Made by a program: the position numbers and the translations under genes. Of a stretch of DNA of 37,802 nt, positions 602 through 10,216 are shown piece after piece. How positions within the stretch are numbered: the stretch's first letter is position 1; every line of letters begins with the position of its first letter. The stretch spans positions 1-37,802 of the forward strand of contig JALQVV010000036.1 in the NCBI GenBank assembly GCA_023260255.1, written 5' to 3'. The DNA comes from Candidatus Saccharimonadia bacterium (GTDB taxonomy: Bacteria; Patescibacteriota; Saccharimonadia; Saccharimonadales; Saccharimonadaceae). The notes below the pieces were generated by a model that did not search any database, had not been told where the DNA came from, and saw nothing but the letters and a program-made list of their open reading frames with translations.

Positions 602-2344
602 TTGTCCACCATGATTCGCGCACTCCGTCGAACTACTAACATAATCTTCGCACTTTTGTTGGCTGTATTTTCAGTTAATTTGTCTGGGGTTTTAACACTA
701 CAGAATGCTGCAGCTGATAAACCAGCAGGCAACAACGGCACCGTCAAAATCGGTGAATTTGATGCAGACAACGGTAACGCAAACGATCCACACGTCGGGT
801 GTAGCCTCGATGTGAAATTCTTTGGTTTTGACGAGGGCACTCGTAACGGAACAGTTACTTTTGAGGCACAGGCTCCGACAGCGGGTCAACTTGCGAGCCC
901 TATCGGTCCTCAGCCAGTCACCTTTACCGGCAGTGGTCCTGGCAACAACCTTGACTATACAAAGACATATACACTAGCTTTCACCGGTGCACCTCAGCAG
1001 AACCAAGGCTACCATGTCAAAGCGACGGTCACCGTTGACGGTGCTCAGGGTAACGACACAAAATCTAAAACTTTTTGGGTGGAGGGTTGTGGACCTACCG
1101 TTATCACACCAGCAACTCCTACCTTTATTGAAGAGTGTGGTAGCCAAAATGATAAGTATGTTATTCCTCAAACAAACGGCGTCATTTACCAAGTAAAGAT
1201 TAACAATGGCAGTTTCCAGACTGTTCCCGCAAACACCTACACGGTATTTCCTGCAGGTGCAGTTGTTGTAGTGAAAGCTTTGCCAGTAGACAACACTGTT
1301 ATCCTCGATGGAACGACAAGCTGGTCATTCGATTTTAGTACAGCAAAGTGTGAGGTCACTGCAACCACACCAGAAAAGATCGATGTTTGTGGAACCGACA
1401 ATGATAAATACGTCATTCCTTCTACACCTCACGTTACTTACAAAGTACGCACCAGCCTACTCAATTACGATGTAAAAGTCGCGGGGACATATAGCCTGAA
1501 CACATTCCAAAAACTGTTCGGTGTTAAGATTATAGCCGAAGCTGATGCAGGCTATACTCTAACTGGCCAAAAAACATGGGATTTTGATTATAGCTCACGC
1601 CCATGTGAAATAACTGCTGCTGCGCCAACCAAGATTGACGAATGTGGCACTGCTAATGATAAATACATTATCCCTGAGTCTGAACACGTAAAATACTACG
1701 TCAACCTGTCTCCAATCGCTAAACCTGCGGGCGAATACACAGCAGGACATATCGTTGGCATCATTGCCGTACCAGATCCTGGCTATGTCATCACCTCGCA
1801 GTTTGCATGGGTATTCGTTTACACCAACACTGCTTGCCCCGTATCGGTTACTCCAGGTGAAGTCACCAGTGTGAACCCATGTGGCACCGATCAAGATGGC
1901 TTTACTATCCCATCAACAACGGGTGTTATTTACAAAAACGGTGACGAAGTTTTGACACCAGGCTTCCACCCTGCAACCGGTACAGTAACAATCGTTGCCG
2001 AAGCAGCGGCTGGTTACGTCCTAACAGAACCTGCAAGCTGGACATTTACTTACACCAACGAAGCATGTCCGCCAGAGCCTTGTACGCCAACGATGGTCAC
2101 GCTGCAGGACCTAACCCTCCTTAGCCAAACTCAGTCCGACGACGATTGTCCTATCTATAATGGCAATCAAGGTGGTGAAACACCAACACCTAAGCCAGCC
2201 GTACCAGCAGGTATTGAACTGCCAGAAACAGGTGCCAATGAAGGCAATGCTCTCGCAAAGGCATTCACACTACTGATCGCCGGCCTGACGACCTACGGCA
2301 TCATGTTCTTCCTGATCAACCGCCGCCAACTTTCAAAGAAATAA
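602..2344 (+). CDS. Sortase-anchored surface protein with four Cys-containing repeats
   Basis: N-terminal hydrophobic signal; repeats CGSQNDKYVIP / CGTDNDKYVIP / CGTANDKYIIP / CGTDQDGFTIP; C-terminal LPETG, TM helix and basic tail (INRRQLSKK). Start is TTG 602 or ATG 611. Confidence 0.9.
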   Translation: MSTMIRALRRTTNIIFALLLAVFSVNLSGVLTLQNAAADKPAGNNGTVKIGEFDADNGNANDPHVGCSLDVKFFGFDEGTRNGTVTFEAQAPTAGQLASPIGPQPVTFTGSGPGNNLDYTKTYTLAFTGAPQQNQGYHVKATVTVDGAQGNDTKSKTFWVEGCGPTVITPATPTFIEECGSQNDKYVIPQTNGVIYQVKINNGSFQTVPANTYTVFPAGAVVVVKALPVDNTVILDGTTSWSFDFSTAKCEVTATTPEKIDVCGTDNDKYVIPSTPHVTYKVRTSLLNYDVKVAGTYSLNTFQKLFGVKIIAEADAGYTLTGQKTWDFDYSSRPCEITAAAPTKIDECGTANDKYIIPESEHVKYYVNLSPIAKPAGEYTAGHIVGIIAVPDPGYVITSQFAWVFVYTNTACPVSVTPGEVTSVNPCGTDQDGFTIPSTTGVIYKNGDEVLTPGFHPATGTVTIVAEAAAGYVLTEPASWTFTYTNEACPPEPCTPTMVTLQDLTLLSQTQSDDDCPIYNGNQGGETPTPKPAVPAGIELPETGANEGNALAKAFTLLIAGLTTYGIMFFLINRRQLSKK

Positions 2345-3245: not shown

Positions 3246-5180
3246 TTAGTTGTTATAAGCATCGAGGAAACGCTCCGTTCGCCCAAGCGTCGCAAGTGTT
3301 TCGTTGATAGATAAATCTATTTGTTCGACCAATTGCCTCAGAAAATTCTCTTCCTGAAAAAGCTCGCTGCGACGTATCGCCACTTTGCTCTGACGAGTAT
3401 GATACTTCATCCGTTTACATAATTGAGGCAGCGTGTGATGCCAGAACTGGCGCTCAAGTTTTGGGATCAGTTGATCAACTGCGTACTCGCCCGGTTCATA
3501 ATTCAATTCACCCAAGATCCTCGTCACGACATAGGTGATGCGACCAGCTTGTAAATCTTCTTTCCAGTCATGTAAATCATCGTTCAGCTGACGTGCGATG
3601 ATATAGTGCCGAAGCGCAGTGAGTAGCTGTTTAGCGCTCTCTTGATCAGGCGACACACCCGCAGCCGCAACAACACCAAGCGCGGGCAGTGCATGACCAA
3701 GCGAACGCTCGGCTAGAGCATCGAGCCGTTTGTAATCAGGTAATTTAGCAATCATTATTCGCTCGCCGTCAACGACAAACCGAGCATGCGTCACTTCCCA
3801 CACATTGGCGGCATCGATCGTATCAAATACATCACGCACAATATGCTGAAATGTATGTTTTTTCGGAAGCACCCGACCAAAAGATTCGACCGACCGACGC
3901 ATCATCACATTTGCCGCAGACAAATAGCGAGGATCACCTTCATCGTCCAAAAAATCATCATATATTGTATAAGCAATCCATCCATAGAGATTGGCAAGGC
4001 TAAGGTTGTTAAGGATATGCCGAGGCAAACGCCGTTGCTGTTTTAGTGATGAGGCAACAAGGTACGGCAGTAATGTAATTTCGTGCGCATTTCTCCCAGA
4101 CGCCGTGCGGTCGATCATGGCTAGTACGCTACGGCGAAGTGTTTTGTCTAATTGCCCCGCTTCTTGGCGAGCCTGCTCAAACACAACAATCGAGCGTGGA
4201 TCAAGTACGGAGGGTTGGACATCTTCCGCCAATCGAGGGGAACTATGCGAATAGCGCTCAAGTGCTTCGATAGCAAATGCCGTTACTAGTGCAGACGAAC
4301 CAGCATAATACGTCTCCCCGCCTCGCTTACGATCCAGCCATACCGCCTCGTTTGGCCACGAGCCATCAGTTTGTTGCGTTTTGATCAGATACTCAATTGC
4401 AGCTTCGGGCACCGCCTCACTCAGCCGTATAAGCGACGATACACAAAGTGCTGTTCGCAGTGGCGAACGACCAATAGTTGACTGGAGTTTTTGTCGTAAC
4501 CACCTGGTCAACTTTTTTTGCGATCTACCCTTGTACACACTGGCCACATAATATGCCACCAGTTCCTCATGAGGATAATACGGCGATGCAAACACCCCAG
4601 CCTGAACCGCTCGCTCTAAAAGATCCACCACATTTGGCAGCGAACTCCCAATCAAAGATAAAAAATAGGCAACGTTTGCATTTACAGCAACATCAACATC
4701 TTGCCATACCTTTGCTGCGCCAGGTGGTACTAGCCAGGTTTTGTAGGGACCACCAACGTGTGATTCTGTGGCAAGCAGGAGTTTGACACTATGTGCCAAC
4801 ACGGTTTCATCAACCAATGAACTATCGTGCAGCCATAGACCCGCAAGAGCACAAAACGTATCATCCAAGTCATCAGGATATGACATCGTCTTATACTCAT
4901 GGCTACCACGATCCCAATAATTCAATGACCATCGTTCACTCTTTTGCGATAGCAAGTATTGTGCAAGTTTGTCCTTTACCGTTTGCGCTTGCCGAAGCGT
5001 CACCTCACCAAGCACTCTTAAAATCAGTGCTGAACCGAAGACAATTTTGTACTCTTTGCCAGTAGACGATAGAGTATCATTCATGAAAACAGTTGTCGTA
5101 AAACCACCATCTGGTAGTTGCCGCGAGGCAAGAAACAGCGTGCCTCGTTCTATGCTTTGACTAATTTTTACTGCGCCCAT
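3246..5180 (-). CDS. Fused terpene-cyclase-like protein (class II-like N-half, isoprenyl-diphosphate/class I-like C-half)
   Basis: N-half: YPDDLDDTFCALAGL (DxDD) and the QW-like TQQTDGSWPNEAVW. C-half: YDDFLDDEGDP and RQLNDDLHDWKEDLQAGR (two DDxxD motifs). Confidence 0.75.
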   Translation of the reverse strand: MGAVKISQSIERGTLFLASRQLPDGGFTTTVFMNDTLSSTGKEYKIVFGSALILRVLGEVTLRQAQTVKDKLAQYLLSQKSERWSLNYWDRGSHEYKTMSYPDDLDDTFCALAGLWLHDSSLVDETVLAHSVKLLLATESHVGGPYKTWLVPPGAAKVWQDVDVAVNANVAYFLSLIGSSLPNVVDLLERAVQAGVFASPYYPHEELVAYYVASVYKGRSQKKLTRWLRQKLQSTIGRSPLRTALCVSSLIRLSEAVPEAAIEYLIKTQQTDGSWPNEAVWLDRKRGGETYYAGSSALVTAFAIEALERYSHSSPRLAEDVQPSVLDPRSIVVFEQARQEAGQLDKTLRRSVLAMIDRTASGRNAHEITLLPYLVASSLKQQRRLPRHILNNLSLANLYGWIAYTIYDDFLDDEGDPRYLSAANVMMRRSVESFGRVLPKKHTFQHIVRDVFDTIDAANVWEVTHARFVVDGERIMIAKLPDYKRLDALAERSLGHALPALGVVAAAGVSPDQESAKQLLTALRHYIIARQLNDDLHDWKEDLQAGRITYVVTRILGELNYEPGEYAVDQLIPKLERQFWHHTLPQLCKRMKYHTRQSKVAIRRSELFQEENFLRQLVEQIDLSINETLATLGRTERFLDAYNN

Positions 5181-6567
5181 GTCGAGGCAAAGTCACGGTA
5201 AATACCGTTCCAGTTTTGTGATTGCTACTGACGGTAATCGTTCCTCCGAAATCTTTCTGTACCATACTGCGCGCAATCGAAAGCCCCATGCCACTGCCAT
5301 TCTTTTTGGTTGTATAAAAAGGATCAAAAATCCTTTCTTGTTTAGCAGGGGAAATACCGCCACCATGATCAATAACAAGTATCACAATCTCATGAGAAAA
5401 GTTTTCTACCATGACATACACCGAACGTTCTGATTGTTTTTGACCTTCGTACGCGTCGATGCTGTTAGAGATAATATTCGTCATAATCTGCCAAAAATGA
5501 TTCACGCTGCCTCTGTACATCAATTCACTACGCTCAGGTGCACTTTGCCATTCCAATGTGACCCGCGCTGCACTGGCCTTGTACTCAAGTATTCGCATCA
5601 CTTGATCAATTTCATCGGCTATATTAAACCGCGAAACAACCGCTTCGCCTTTGATTTGCCTGCGTACCTGGCCGGTCAAACTATCGAGATGGCGAATACT
5701 TTGCTGAACACGCTGTAGTGCTTTAGAGCGATTCTGTTTTGCCTGTTTAAGGTCTTCGATGTCGAGCGACAACACTGCCAAGTAATTCGCCATGTCATGG
5801 AGTAACGCTGTGCTCATATGACCAAGTTCAGCAAAACGATAGAGTTCTTGTACGCGCACCATATGCGCTTCTTGCAGCTGCCGAGTACGCTCCTCCACCT
5901 TTACTTCCAGCAGTTCTTTCTGACGAAGCAGGGCTTTTTCCGAGCGACGCGCTCGTTTGAGTGACTGATCCATTGAACGATTAAATAACCACGATACGAC
6001 AGCAACATTTGCCAGAATGATGCTATAGGCAACAACGTCATACCACGAAATAATATTAAGTGCCCACGAGGTATCGGGATGAATAATACTTCGCGAAGCA
6101 AGCCACGTAAAAAGACTAATTGTCCCCACCGCAAGGAAAAGTGCGTAAAGTGCGTATCGAGCGCTGAGCAATATTCCCGCAAGTATAATACTAAACGCAT
6201 ACATTAACTGACTAACAGGATTATGCATCCCCCAGGCATAGCCAACTCCCACTGCACCCAAGAAATAAAATCCAAGTAATACTATCGTGGGAAGCAGTAA
6301 ACTCCCCCTCCTGAATCGCCCATAGAGTCCAGCCAGGATAATCAAAATCGAAGCTGCTATGAATATTCGTCCCCATAAATACTCGCGGTGAAGCATCCAG
6401 AGGTTGCCGAGTAAAACAACGAGGATCCCCACAACAAAAGCCATAGTACTGAGCAGAAGTATATTCAGAACCTGCTCTTTACTGCGACGGTCAGGATCTT
6501 GTGAATAGGTACTAAATAAAAAACGAATCCCCCGCTTTAATCCATGAATAGCAGGGGATCGTGTCAT
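5161..6567 (-). CDS. Membrane sensor histidine kinase
   Basis: Multiple N-terminal TM helices; H-box ELGHMSTALLHDMANYLAVL; HATPase boxes NIISNSIDAYE, DHGGGISPAKQERIFDPFYTTKKNGSGMGLSIA. Overlaps the start of the downstream gene by 20 nt. Confidence 0.9.
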   Translation of the reverse strand: MTRSPAIHGLKRGIRFLFSTYSQDPDRRSKEQVLNILLLSTMAFVVGILVVLLGNLWMLHREYLWGRIFIAASILIILAGLYGRFRRGSLLLPTIVLLGFYFLGAVGVGYAWGMHNPVSQLMYAFSIILAGILLSARYALYALFLAVGTISLFTWLASRSIIHPDTSWALNIISWYDVVAYSIILANVAVVSWLFNRSMDQSLKRARRSEKALLRQKELLEVKVEERTRQLQEAHMVRVQELYRFAELGHMSTALLHDMANYLAVLSLDIEDLKQAKQNRSKALQRVQQSIRHLDSLTGQVRRQIKGEAVVSRFNIADEIDQVMRILEYKASAARVTLEWQSAPERSELMYRGSVNHFWQIMTNIISNSIDAYEGQKQSERSVYVMVENFSHEIVILVIDHGGGISPAKQERIFDPFYTTKKNGSGMGLSIARSMVQKDFGGTITVSSNHKTGTVFTVTLPRHGRSKN

Positions 6568-6587
6568 TTTCTTCTTGTCACCTTATC

Positions 6588-6707
6588 TTATTCTGCGACA
6601 TCAGCCCAAGGAGCCGCAATCTCTGCCTGGTTGATGAGTTGGCTCTCAACAACCTCTGCGCCTCGTGCCTCATTGTCGGTTAAAATATTTGTAATCACAC
6701 TTTGCAT
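6588..6707 (-). CDS. 39-aa mini-ORF between response regulator and kinase
   Basis: Absent from the ORF track (short). Minus strand: MQSVITNILTDNEARGAEVVESQLINQAEIAAPWADVAE*, weak AAAGGA upstream; fills the gap between the two genes. Confidence 0.5.
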   Translation of the reverse strand: MQSVITNILTDNEARGAEVVESQLINQAEIAAPWADVAE

Positions 6708-6740
6708 ACTCGCCCATCCTTTCGCAATTATGTTGTATTT

Positions 6741-7427
6741 TTATAATACCATGTCGTGGTCTTCTATTGTATATCCTACACCATGTGCTGTTTTTATCAG
6801 TGGTTTTGTGAATGGCCGATCAACTTTATCGCGCAAATATTTGATATGTACACGTACGGTTGGTTTTCGTTCATCGGTATCGCTTCTGTCCCATACATCT
6901 CGCAAGATCATGTCGGGTGACACCGGCTTGCCCAGATTGCGCACAAGATATTCCAAAATCTCATATTCTTTGCGGCGTAGATGAATAGGTACGCCTCCTC
7001 GCGTCACTGTCCGCCTGGAAGGATTGATTATAAGATCACCTACTTCCAGCAAAGACAATGGCGAATCAGCCTGCCGACGGCGTAGGAGTGCATAAATCCG
7101 CGCATCTAACTCAGCAAACTCGAATGGCTTTGTTAAGTAATCGTCAGCGCCGCTCTCAAACAAACGAACCTTGGTGTCCGTATCACTTTCGGCAGTCAAA
7201 ATAAGAATTGGCATCATCATACCCGCCTGCCGCAAATGAGCGCAGACTTCTTCGCCACTTATATCTGGAAGGCCAAGATCAAGAATGACAACATCATACG
7301 GTCTGGTTTTGGCGAGTTCTTCGCCTTCGACACCAGTGTACGCCGTATCGATAGTAAAACGATCCTCTAAATGGGTCTCTAACCTCTCGGTGAGAAACAC
7401 ATTATCATCAACAATCAGCAGCCTCAT
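6741..7427 (-). CDS. OmpR-family response regulator
   Basis: Receiver DVVILDLGLPDISGEEVC ... LTKPFEFAELDARI; winged-helix RRKEYEILEYLVRNLGKPVS ... VRVHIKYLRDKV ... GVGYTI. Confidence 0.93.
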   Translation of the reverse strand: MRLLIVDDNVFLTERLETHLEDRFTIDTAYTGVEGEELAKTRPYDVVILDLGLPDISGEEVCAHLRQAGMMMPILILTAESDTDTKVRLFESGADDYLTKPFEFAELDARIYALLRRRQADSPLSLLEVGDLIINPSRRTVTRGGVPIHLRRKEYEILEYLVRNLGKPVSPDMILRDVWDRSDTDERKPTVRVHIKYLRDKVDRPFTKPLIKTAHGVGYTIEDHDMVL

Positions 7428-7455
7428 ACTACCTCTACTATATCATCTATTATCC

Positions 7456-7489
7456 CTGGTGGCTTAAACTATTCCCCAAGTGCCACCAG
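7456..7489. promoter_or_regulatory. 8-bp perfect inverted repeat just upstream of the response-regulator promoter
   Basis: CTGGTGGC-N18-GCCACCAG; on the minus strand it ends about 2 nt before a GATAAT -10 candidate. Could also be a terminator for the 7502-7702 gene. Confidence 0.45.
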
Positions 7490-7501
7490 TTATTCAAATA
7501 G

Positions 7502-7702
7502 CTACGCACCGAGTGTTTGCAGAACATGGAAAACAAGAATTGCAGGCCAGACGATTGCCTGCAAAAATGCCCACACAAAATCACCAAAATCATTCGCACC
7601 CTGAGCGAAATAGACAAATGCACCGACAAATGCCACAAACGCGATGAATCCTGATGGCCCTTGGTTAATTACCTTCACCTTCATACTTTCGTTCTTTGTC
7701 AT
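7502..7702 (-). CDS. Small membrane protein
   Basis: 66 aa with hydrophobic segments and a GGAGGG-type RBS. Confidence 0.6.
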   Translation of the reverse strand: MTKNESMKVKVINQGPSGFIAFVAFVGAFVYFAQGANDFGDFVWAFLQAIVWPAILVFHVLQTLGA

Positions 7703-7885
7703 ACACCCTCCTTGAATTAGTATCTCCAGTATAGCACCCGCTTAAGTTTTATCCTTCATTGATTTTAATCCGATTTAGTTCTCTCAATTTGATAGTATCG
7801 ACCTCTGATAGGGTCTGTATTAAATCCAAAAAATCACCTATACTAGGATGGTTATTCAAAGCCTTATCAATGAGTTGAGTATCTA

Positions 7886-8314
7886 ATGCAAACCCACAAG
7901 AGCAACCGTTCTCCTCAGTCTCGTACTCTAGACGATGGCCCTTTTTATCATGGGACAAAAGCAGATTTACAAATCGGAGATCTGCTCACGGCAGGATTTC
8001 AGTCAAACTATAAACCAGAAGTAACGATGAATCATATTTACTTTACCGCTCTTGTCAATGGCGCAGGGCTTGCTGCTGAATTAGCCAGTGGCGATGGGCG
8101 TCCGCGAGTTTATCTTGTTGAACCAACGGGAGAGTTCGAAAACGACCCGAATGTCACCGACAAAAAGTTTCCCGGCAACCCTACACGTTCCTATCGCAGC
8201 CAAGAACCATTAAAAATTATTGGCGAGGTTACCGACTGGACAAGGCTCACCCCCGAACAGCTTCAAGAGTGGCGTGACAGACTAGCAAACATCAAGGGTG
8301 AAATTATCAACTGA
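7886..8314 (+). CDS. arr: NAD(+)-rifampin ADP-ribosyltransferase-like protein (Arr)
   Basis: GPFYHGTKADLQIGDLLTAGFQSNYKPEVTMNHIYFTA...ASGDGRPRVYLVEPTGEFENDPNVTDKKFPGNPTRSYRSQEPLKIIGEV is the Arr family signature. Start uncertain. Confidence 0.88.
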   Translation: MQTHKSNRSPQSRTLDDGPFYHGTKADLQIGDLLTAGFQSNYKPEVTMNHIYFTALVNGAGLAAELASGDGRPRVYLVEPTGEFENDPNVTDKKFPGNPTRSYRSQEPLKIIGEVTDWTRLTPEQLQEWRDRLANIKGEIIN

Positions 8315-8488: not shown

Positions 8489-10084
8489 ATGCGACAATGG
8501 CGTCGCTTAGGAACTGCGGTTATAGCCGCGGTGTTGTTGATCGGTGCCTTGGTGGCGCCGGTAGGTGGAGGCAGCAGCGTTTCGTCGTTGCTTTCCACGG
8601 CTGTTCAGCACGAAGTGAGCCTGACGACGGCCACCGACTACTACGGTGGAACATCCGATCCGTATGCTCACTGGGGACCGTATTTTGCGAATGGCTCGCT
8701 GAGCCAGGGCACAGTCACCCAGGTGTGGACGCCAGAAGAATTCCGACCGTTCGCGCCGAACTTTCTGCCCACGGAGTGGGATGATCTGACGCTGGATCAG
8801 TCGGTCCGCGTTGGCGCACAGATCATGCTGGCACGCATCCTGGCCAACCAAGATCCCGACCTACGGATCGTCACCGAAAGCCAAAGCTCCATCATAGCCA
8901 CTGTCGTGAAGAGGTGGCTTTTGGAGCATCCCGACCAGGCACCACCGGCGGATCAGCTGACATTTTACACCTTCGAAAGTCAAACGAGACCGAACGGAGG
9001 TATAGCGTCACGCTTCGCAGGGGTGTCGATACCCTTCCTGGGTGTCACCGCCATTGGTCCAACGCCACCGACGCAGTACCGGACCTATGACTTCGCCAGG
9101 GAGTACGAGGGGTTCGTGAACTTCCCCGCGTACCTCGTCAATCTGCCTGCGGTTGTCAACGCCATCATCGGTATCGGCGTGCTCCATGGCCGTATAGCTG
9201 ATGTGGATCTGGATGATCCGTCCTATGTCCGTGAAACGGTTGGTAACACGACCTACATCACGGCACCGACGGCGAATCTACCCATGTTGGTACCCATTCG
9301 GGTGCTAGCGAAGGCGTTCGGGATCACGGACACCAGAGTTATCGATGCCATGGAACCAGTCCTGAAAGTCATCGTTGACGCCGGCTACCCCGGTAACGAC
9401 CCGATGGCAAACCAGGGCGAGTTCATCCCGGCAACGTTGGGTATACCACCGGAAAACGTCGTTCGGATGCTCCAGCAACTCCCGGCTGCAATCCAGGAGG
9501 GGCTGGCCATTCTGCGTACGCCGAAGTCAACAGTCCCTACCCCAACGAATCCACCGACGACATCCCTGGCAGTGGAGTCGGTGAGTTCTTCCGAGCCTCA
9601 GACACAGATGCCATCTGCGTCTGAGACGAAGAAGCAGGTTCCGACAGTCGCGGAAGCGGTCACCCACGATGTCGTGGAAGCACCGAAGATCAGCGACAAC
9701 CCGTCGCCGCAGGTCACCACCTCAGTGACAGACAAGGAGCTCGAACCGTCGGAACAGGTTTCGCAGGATGAGCCGTCGGCAGCCGCCGAACCGACTCACC
9801 CCGACGTTACCACGCCCGCCAATACACCGGCATCTGAACCGTCGGTCGAATCACACTCGACCGACAGCAAACCGGCACCGAAGGCAGCGTCCGACACGTC
9901 GGAGACCACGCCAAAGCCCGCAAAGAAAAAGCCCGGATTCAACCCCGGCGCGAGTATCAAGCGGGTACTGGACCAGATTCACAAGGCGACTCATGCCAAC
10001 GAGCCCAAGAAGAAGCCTGCTTCTTCTGACTCGTCATCGGCAGCCTCGTCCAGTGGATCCGGTAGCGACTCCGGTTCGAACTAA
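8489..10084 (+). CDS. Secreted PE-PPE-domain-like protein with Pro/Ser/Thr-rich tail
   Basis: Signal peptide; core FYTFESQTRPNGGIASRFAGVSIPFLGVT...YDFAREYEGFVNFPAYLVNLPAVVNAIIGIGVLHGRI...YITAPTANLPMLVPIR resembles the PE-PPE C-terminal domain of mycobacteria. RBS GAGAGGAG. Confidence 0.75.
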   Translation: MRQWRRLGTAVIAAVLLIGALVAPVGGGSSVSSLLSTAVQHEVSLTTATDYYGGTSDPYAHWGPYFANGSLSQGTVTQVWTPEEFRPFAPNFLPTEWDDLTLDQSVRVGAQIMLARILANQDPDLRIVTESQSSIIATVVKRWLLEHPDQAPPADQLTFYTFESQTRPNGGIASRFAGVSIPFLGVTAIGPTPPTQYRTYDFAREYEGFVNFPAYLVNLPAVVNAIIGIGVLHGRIADVDLDDPSYVRETVGNTTYITAPTANLPMLVPIRVLAKAFGITDTRVIDAMEPVLKVIVDAGYPGNDPMANQGEFIPATLGIPPENVVRMLQQLPAAIQEGLAILRTPKSTVPTPTNPPTTSLAVESVSSSEPQTQMPSASETKKQVPTVAEAVTHDVVEAPKISDNPSPQVTTSVTDKELEPSEQVSQDEPSAAAEPTHPDVTTPANTPASEPSVESHSTDSKPAPKAASDTSETTPKPAKKKPGFNPGASIKRVLDQIHKATHANEPKKKPASSDSSSAASSSGSGSDSGSN

Positions 10085-10102
10085 CCCCTCTCAACTACCC
10101 GG

Positions 10103-10150
10103 CCCCTGGCTGTACAGCGTTTTATTACTGTACAGCCGGGGGCTTTTCCT
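10103..10150 (+). terminator. Rho-independent terminator
   Basis: GGCTGTACAG / CTGTACAGCC followed by GGGGGCTTTTCCTTTTT. Confidence 0.85.
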
Positions 10151-10216
10151 TTTTGAGACCTCATGTATGGCGGAACCTTATTAGACAAAAATACGTTTAT
10201 ATGTTATTATTTACCT

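Follow-up and report, generated by a model that had tools for sequence, protein, structure and literature searches.

The window analyzed here is the whole 37,802-nucleotide contig JALQVV010000036.1 of a Candidatus Saccharimonadia bacterium, a member of the Candidate Phyla Radiation (CPR; Patescibacteria), and it belongs to a 1.0-Mb genome with a completeness of 98%. On its minus strand lie four genes, which encode, in the order of transcription, a response regulator (RR), a 39-aa mini-ORF (open reading frame), a histidine kinase (HK), and a 644-aa fusion protein. Our analysis suggests that this locus is probably a self-contained, ComQXPA-like peptide-signaling cassette, in which a Trp residue of a short peptide would be modified with a terpene and the product sensed by the HK and RR. 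Whether the product, a short peptide with a cyclized terpene on Trp and carbon that is maybe derived from the host, acts as a pheromone from cell to cell in epibiont populations of Patescibacteria is a question on which we are evenly divided. The initial annotation of this DNA had described the four genes as collinear and the HK gene as overlapping the last gene by 20 nt, and both points were borne out by the window coordinates (overlap at 5161-5180). The features of the cassette are as follows.

6741-7427, minus strand: OmpR-type response regulator, 228 aa (Response_reg E 8.6e-26, Trans_reg_C 3.8e-20)
6588-6707, minus strand: predicted precursor peptide MQSVITNILTDNEARGAEVVESQLINQAEIAAPWADVAE, 39 aa (leader Leu9 and Arg15, core Trp34; GAAAGGA upstream)
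5161-6567, minus strand: sensor histidine kinase, 468 aa (HATPase_c E 2.8e-23; H257; about 6 transmembrane helices)
3246-5180, minus strand: predicted fused maturase, 644 aa (class II terpene cyclase domain at about 1-320 and prenyltransferase domain resembling trans-isoprenyl diphosphate synthases (trans-IDS) at about 330-644)
4860-4871, minus strand: DxDD catalytic-acid motif of the class II half, D104 L D106 D107 (sequence; family alignment)
3945-3959, minus strand: first Asp-rich motif DDFLD, residues 408-412 (sequence; family alignment)
3567-3581, minus strand: second Asp-rich motif DDLHD, residues 534-538, with Q531 before the motif (sequence; family alignment)

The precursor peptide and its cassette

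A peptide gene was present in 37 of the 37 examined loci that hold the class I (trans-IDS-like) half of the maturase together with the upstream region. The 36 complete peptides, mostly 32-40 aa in size, begin with a leader of the pattern M..[LIV][ILM]..[IVL]LT[DN]..[AV]R, continue with a variable middle, and end in a C-terminal PW. Trp was found in 36/36 at most 9 residues from the C-terminus, as Pro-Trp in 33/36, and among the leaders in register Arg15 was found in 33/33 and Leu9 in 32/33. The proportion of short ORFs in the same DNA that terminate in PW is 1.5%. In all 14 loci of the first round, the gap between the RR and kinase genes contained a short ORF whose product has Trp at its C-terminal end. 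A profile of these first-round peptides selected exactly one frame in each new locus (16/16, among 6,851 frames), although two of these matches were weak (E 0.0015 and 0.006) and assembly Ns interrupt one of the two. In a six-frame profile search of 380 patescibacterial genomes, the 14 strong matches (E ≤ 2.1e-10) were all at the cassette, and the remaining two (E ~1e-3) fell within unrelated frames of 820 and 439 aa; because some of these loci had contributed to the profile, the telling part of this search is the absence of the peptide elsewhere. What the mini-ORF encodes is a precursor peptide conserved among the loci; neither Pfam nor NCBIfam returned a match to it. The initial annotation had correctly placed it in the operon, but it is not filler; it is the most diagnostic part of the cassette and the predicted substrate.

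Upstream of the peptide gene, a noncoding GGTCG(A) element was observed 36-49 nt before the ATG in L003, L004, L027, L028, L029, L031, L039, L043, and L088, and in some loci it apparently forms part of a small hairpin loop. GGTCG occurred within 130 nt upstream of the peptide in 13/36 loci, compared with about 4 expected, and four of these occurrences were inside the RR coding sequence. The element is possibly a promoter or leader motif. An Rfam scan returned tRNAs only and no regulatory RNA.

The order RR-peptide-HK-fusion was found again in other loci, and an RR ortholog adjoins the cassette in most of them. The earlier proposal of a dedicated sensor is supported. The HK has about six transmembrane (TM) helices (25-158 plus the start of 175-275) with short loops, followed by a long signaling helix and a standard kinase core, in which H257 lies in the H-D/E box. 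Identity was 27% in the membrane part and 39-40% in the kinase part, so that the TM sensor is the fastest-evolving portion of the HK; a weaker conservation of the membrane part has also been reported for ComP (PMC4008528). The distances of the maturase prenyltransferase (PT) and the HK were correlated (Mantel r 0.74, p 2e-4). No gene outside the four was common to the loci compared, and a transporter or target operon therefore cannot be named.

The cassette was found in 20 of the 380 genomes sampled across the phylum (~5%), in 19/295 genomes of the class to which the window belongs, and in 5/49 of another class. It was not found in the four other sampled genomes of the same genus, indicating that it is accessory and patchy. 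The two-component cassette with a fused cyclase that had been pointed out as unusual for a CPR bacterium is thus real, but it is not unique to this genome. No homolog was found in the plasmid and phage collections, and the scan of the whole collection beyond the CPR used narrow patterns. One locus from a viral-contig collection (L088), on a contig that may be viral or cellular, carries the entire RR-peptide-HK-PT module.

The two halves of the predicted maturase

The DxDD motif and QW-like repeats noted earlier in the first half of the 644-aa protein and the two DDxxD motifs noted in its second half were all present, with the repeats at residues ~21-27 and ~268-275. Because Pfam and NCBIfam gave weak matches alone for the fusion protein, profile and fold comparisons were used. 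Full-length homologs occur in L001-L004 with 34-39% identity. A profile of 20 relatives, compared with the PDB, matched the class II domain of the drimenol synthase AsDMS (E 7.4e-18, profile positions 22-310), and by fold the class II half matched squalene-hopene cyclase (SHC), AsDMS, and MstE (E ~1e-6 to 8e-9), which agrees with the initial description of a class II/squalene-cyclase-like first half. The class I half resembled trans-polyprenyl and geranylgeranyl diphosphate (GGPP) synthases by fold, with a TM-score to target of up to 0.72-0.73. The AlphaFold2 model of the protein, made from an alignment of five sequences, had a mean pLDDT of 77 and a pTM of 0.49; because the pTM is low, the mutual arrangement of the two domains is unsupported, whereas the fold of each domain is supported. 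The initial assignment had been made to depend on an alpha-alpha barrel and an all-alpha trans-IDS fold, and the structure prediction returned both. The N-terminal domain therefore combines the barrel fold with the DxDD motif that together define class II terpene cyclases. Throughout the family, DxDD, the two Asp-rich motifs, and a GGPY segment can be aligned. A search of the window's own genome with PF00432 gave no match, but the controls were equally silent, which makes this result uninformative.

The class II active site was intact in 23 loci and decayed or missing in 12 (L036, L037, L039, L040, L088, and L099-L105), and the class II half was wholly missing in L043 and L044. The 12 loci retain the Trp peptide and, in the maturase, both the GGPY segment and the trans-IDS-like domain; most of them also retain the HK. 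Because the peptide and the class I half persist where the class II site has been lost, they form the constant core and cyclization appears to be a tailoring step, as expected if prenylation of the peptide comes first. The retention of the E...GGPY segment in cyclase-less maturases from which DxDD is gone was observed as well, and this segment may serve peptide binding rather than cyclization. In L042 (G349, 9154-10176, minus strand), a class II cyclase domain preceded by an N-terminal TM segment stands alone, and neither a peptide nor a kinase was found in its vicinity.

The IPP-binding motif GGKRxR (IPP, isopentenyl diphosphate) was found in 0/39 family members that have the second motif, compared with 8/9 canonical trans-IDS, and the RRG that follows the first Asp-rich motif (FARM..RRG) was found in 1/39 compared with 7/9; the nine comparators came from cassette-bearing genomes. 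The second motif of the family is DDxHD, and there is no conserved residue at position 541, where an NSE motif would have its Glu. The C-terminal domain thus lacks the GGKRxR and RRG that mark canonical trans-IDS and, with DDxxD and a variable 541, also the NSE/DTE second metal motif of class I terpene synthases, and the initial reading of this half as an isoprenyl-diphosphate synthase or class I terpene synthase is therefore unlikely. Because GGKRxR is absent and 541 is not a conserved Glu, prenyl transfer to an acceptor other than IPP is the natural reading, and the class I half looks like a Trp prenyltransferase of the ComQ, PalQ, and ChrPC-P kind.

With regard to the prenyl donor, the window's own genome encodes a PF00348 enzyme outside the cassette, and a canonical trans-IDS is encoded in 14 of the 20 cassette genomes. 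In L033 (G044:C47), the gene of a canonical trans-polyprenyl/GGPP-type synthase (7013-8199) lies between the RR and peptide genes. A prenyl-diphosphate donor is plausible in view of this operon enzyme and the enzyme elsewhere in the window's genome, and the L033 synthase is a likely donor supplier. The window's genome gave no match to Dxr, a marker of the methylerythritol phosphate (MEP) pathway, or to the mevalonate-diphosphate decarboxylase MvaD, a marker of the mevalonate pathway, and 12/14 cassette genomes were without both. Because matches to both enzymes are absent from the window's genome, prenyl carbon could be drawn from the host; we speculate that IPP and dimethylallyl diphosphate (DMAPP) or longer prenyl diphosphates may come from there.

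A proposed pathway and its alternatives

We infer the reactions and their order, the chain length, the processing, export, and sensing of the product, and its target genes as follows. The N-terminal half of the precursor, with its conserved leader, would recruit the maturase, and the C-terminal (P)W would be the modified site. The trans-IDS-like domain would use its first Asp-rich motif to ionize a prenyl diphosphate, the chain length of which is probably C15 or C20, and the prenyl group would be transferred to the indole of Trp34. The class II domain would then protonate the distal end of the chain through DxDD and cyclize the prenyl group, yielding a terpenylated tryptophan. After cleavage of the leader, the short lipopeptide would exit the cell, and the 6-TM HK would sense it in or at the membrane and phosphorylate the RR, leading to a change in gene expression. 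The initial annotation had suggested a terpenoid signal or a membrane lipid at the host interface; the idea of a terpenoid signal is supported by this analysis.

Several points weigh against a peptide-signaling cassette. The likeness of the maturase to ComQ, PalQ, and ChrPC was drawn from descriptions of these enzymes rather than from sequence comparison, and the peptides did not match the ComX family (PF05952) at E ≤ 1; in the window's own genome PF05952 gave no match up to E 10, although the same search stayed below the cutoff in B. subtilis too. No exporter or leader peptidase was conserved beside the cassette across the loci. The PT-HK Mantel correlation also reflects shared ancestry, and it is from synteny alone that recognition of the peptide by the kinase is proposed. 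The Gln that precedes the second Asp-rich motif has been cited for Trp recognition, but it is present in canonical trans-IDS too and so does not discriminate; it was therefore set aside as evidence.

Among the alternatives, the most serious is that the product is secreted as an antimicrobial lipopeptide or one that acts on the host, a ribosomally synthesized and post-translationally modified effector whose production would be autoinduced by the two-component system as in lantibiotic loci. Such a product would be of obvious use to an epibiont, the peptide core is variable, and prenylated peptides can be membrane-active, with C10 prenylation raising antimicrobial potency (PMC13290415). However, no immunity gene, ABC exporter, or protease is conserved in the cassette, and the single peptide gene per cassette with the kinase and regulator as its usual partners fits a pheromone better; we consider the effector unlikely, though a serious contender. 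L104 and L105, in which the peptide gene directly precedes the maturase gene and no HK or RR was found nearby, are compatible with both. A considerably less probable explanation is that of the initial annotation, a bifunctional terpene synthase under two-component control whose product, a free diterpenoid or sesquiterpenoid, would serve as a signal or membrane lipid, with the mini-ORF as a regulatory micropeptide. Both folds are known in terpene synthases, but this explanation does not account for the invariant C-terminal Trp beside Pro, the exclusive co-occurrence of peptide and maturase, or the retention of the peptide after loss of DxDD, and the DDxxD second motif with a nonconserved 541 is unlike NSE/DTE. 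A role of the C-terminal domain as a prenyl diphosphate synthase that feeds the fused class II cyclase (a GGPP synthase-cyclase fusion) would suit its fold match to GGPP/polyprenyl synthases and its two DDxxD motifs, but is hardly credible given the absence of GGKRxR, the near-complete absence of RRG, and the canonical trans-IDS already present in most of these genomes and, in L033, within the operon.

If the proposed peptide-signaling cassette is real, it would represent pheromone chemistry of a new kind, a terpenylated Trp with natural cyclase-on and cyclase-off variants. Since a conserved precursor, maturase, kinase, and regulator are encoded by four short genes, signaling in the CPR becomes directly testable in E. 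coli, and the family offers many natural examples from which to study the route by which trans-IDS-fold enzymes acquired peptide substrates. Peptide quorum sensing is not known from the obligately host-dependent CPR bacteria, and a 2014 census found no ComQXPA outside the Firmicutes (PMC4008528). In the open-access literature, we found no report of this cassette and none of peptide quorum sensing in the CPR.

Other genes were observed around the cassette in the window. Just upstream of the RR gene, a 66-aa hydrophobic membrane ORF (7502-7702, minus strand) has no relative in other loci. Adjoining the cassette is a gene for a rifampin ADP-ribosyltransferase family protein (7886-8314, plus strand; Arr-ms, E 3e-50), followed by one for a protein that has a hydrophobic segment at its N-terminus as well as a PE-PPE domain (8489-10084, plus strand; PF08237, E 5e-44). 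The PE-PPE family is best known from mycobacteria, and this gene was possibly transferred from an actinobacterial host. On the other side, 602-2344 (plus strand) encodes a secreted repeat protein without a Pfam match, which from its LPETG end, TM segment, and basic tail is predicted to be a surface protein of the sortase type, here encoded in a CPR genome.

Comparison with known systems

With ComQXPA, the cassette shares a small precursor with Trp near the C-terminus (PMC4008528, PMC5331326) and the presence in a single locus of a trans-IDS-fold modifier with the first Asp-rich motif, a multi-TM HK, and an RR; modifier, precursor, HK, and RR are likewise co-localized here. The gene order is Q-X-P-A in ComQXPA, whereas it corresponds to RR-X-P-Q here, with an RR of the OmpR type. 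ComX-type precursors have 53-58 aa and no obvious recognition sequence, in contrast to the shorter peptides with a conserved leader in our loci, and the pseudo-SARM of ComQXPA modifiers lacks the second Asp-rich motif, whereas the second DDxxD is intact here. A fused class II cyclase domain and the CPR as the host group are further differences. The cassette would function in the manner of ComQXPA, but by the criteria of the ComX family and the pseudo-SARM it falls outside that group.

ComQ and PalQ both have the trans-IDS fold and prenylate Trp, and PalX and PalQ adjoin a kinase (PMC13290415, PMC10853753, PMC5331326). The PalQ/PalX/PalP system of Paenibacillus thus shares with our loci a prenyltransferase of this fold, a precursor peptide, and a neighboring histidine kinase (PMC10853753). 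It differs in that PalX has an NHLP leader and a C-terminal Trp, no cyclase domain is reported, and the system belongs to the Firmicutes. For the class II domain, the drimenol synthase AsDMS (HAD-TC beta) was the best sequence match, and AsDMS and MstE were among the best fold matches. These enzymes act on free farnesyl diphosphate (FPP) or prenylated benzoate, with an HAD partner or alone, and not on peptides.

The ChrPC-type architecture was reportedly described by Hubrich et al. in 2024. ChrPC is reported to be a trans-IDS-like P domain fused to a terpene cyclase domain, ChrPC and NctPC are prenyltransferase-cyclase fusions that cyclize a prenyl group on a peptide Trp, and the C domain of NctPC resembles MstE, also a fold match of the class II half here (PMC13290415). 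Our maturase likewise joins a trans-IDS-like domain to a class II terpene cyclase domain and has a dedicated precursor adjoining it, and because of this ChrPC-type architecture the enzymatic idea has a precedent. The cassette differs from ChrPC/NctPC in its dedicated HK and RR, its short leader, its occurrence in reduced CPR genomes, and the loss of the cyclase in a sizeable subset of loci. What appears to be new is the coupling of a ChrPC-type maturase to a dedicated kinase and regulator and a short-leader precursor, and the spread of this combination in the CPR.

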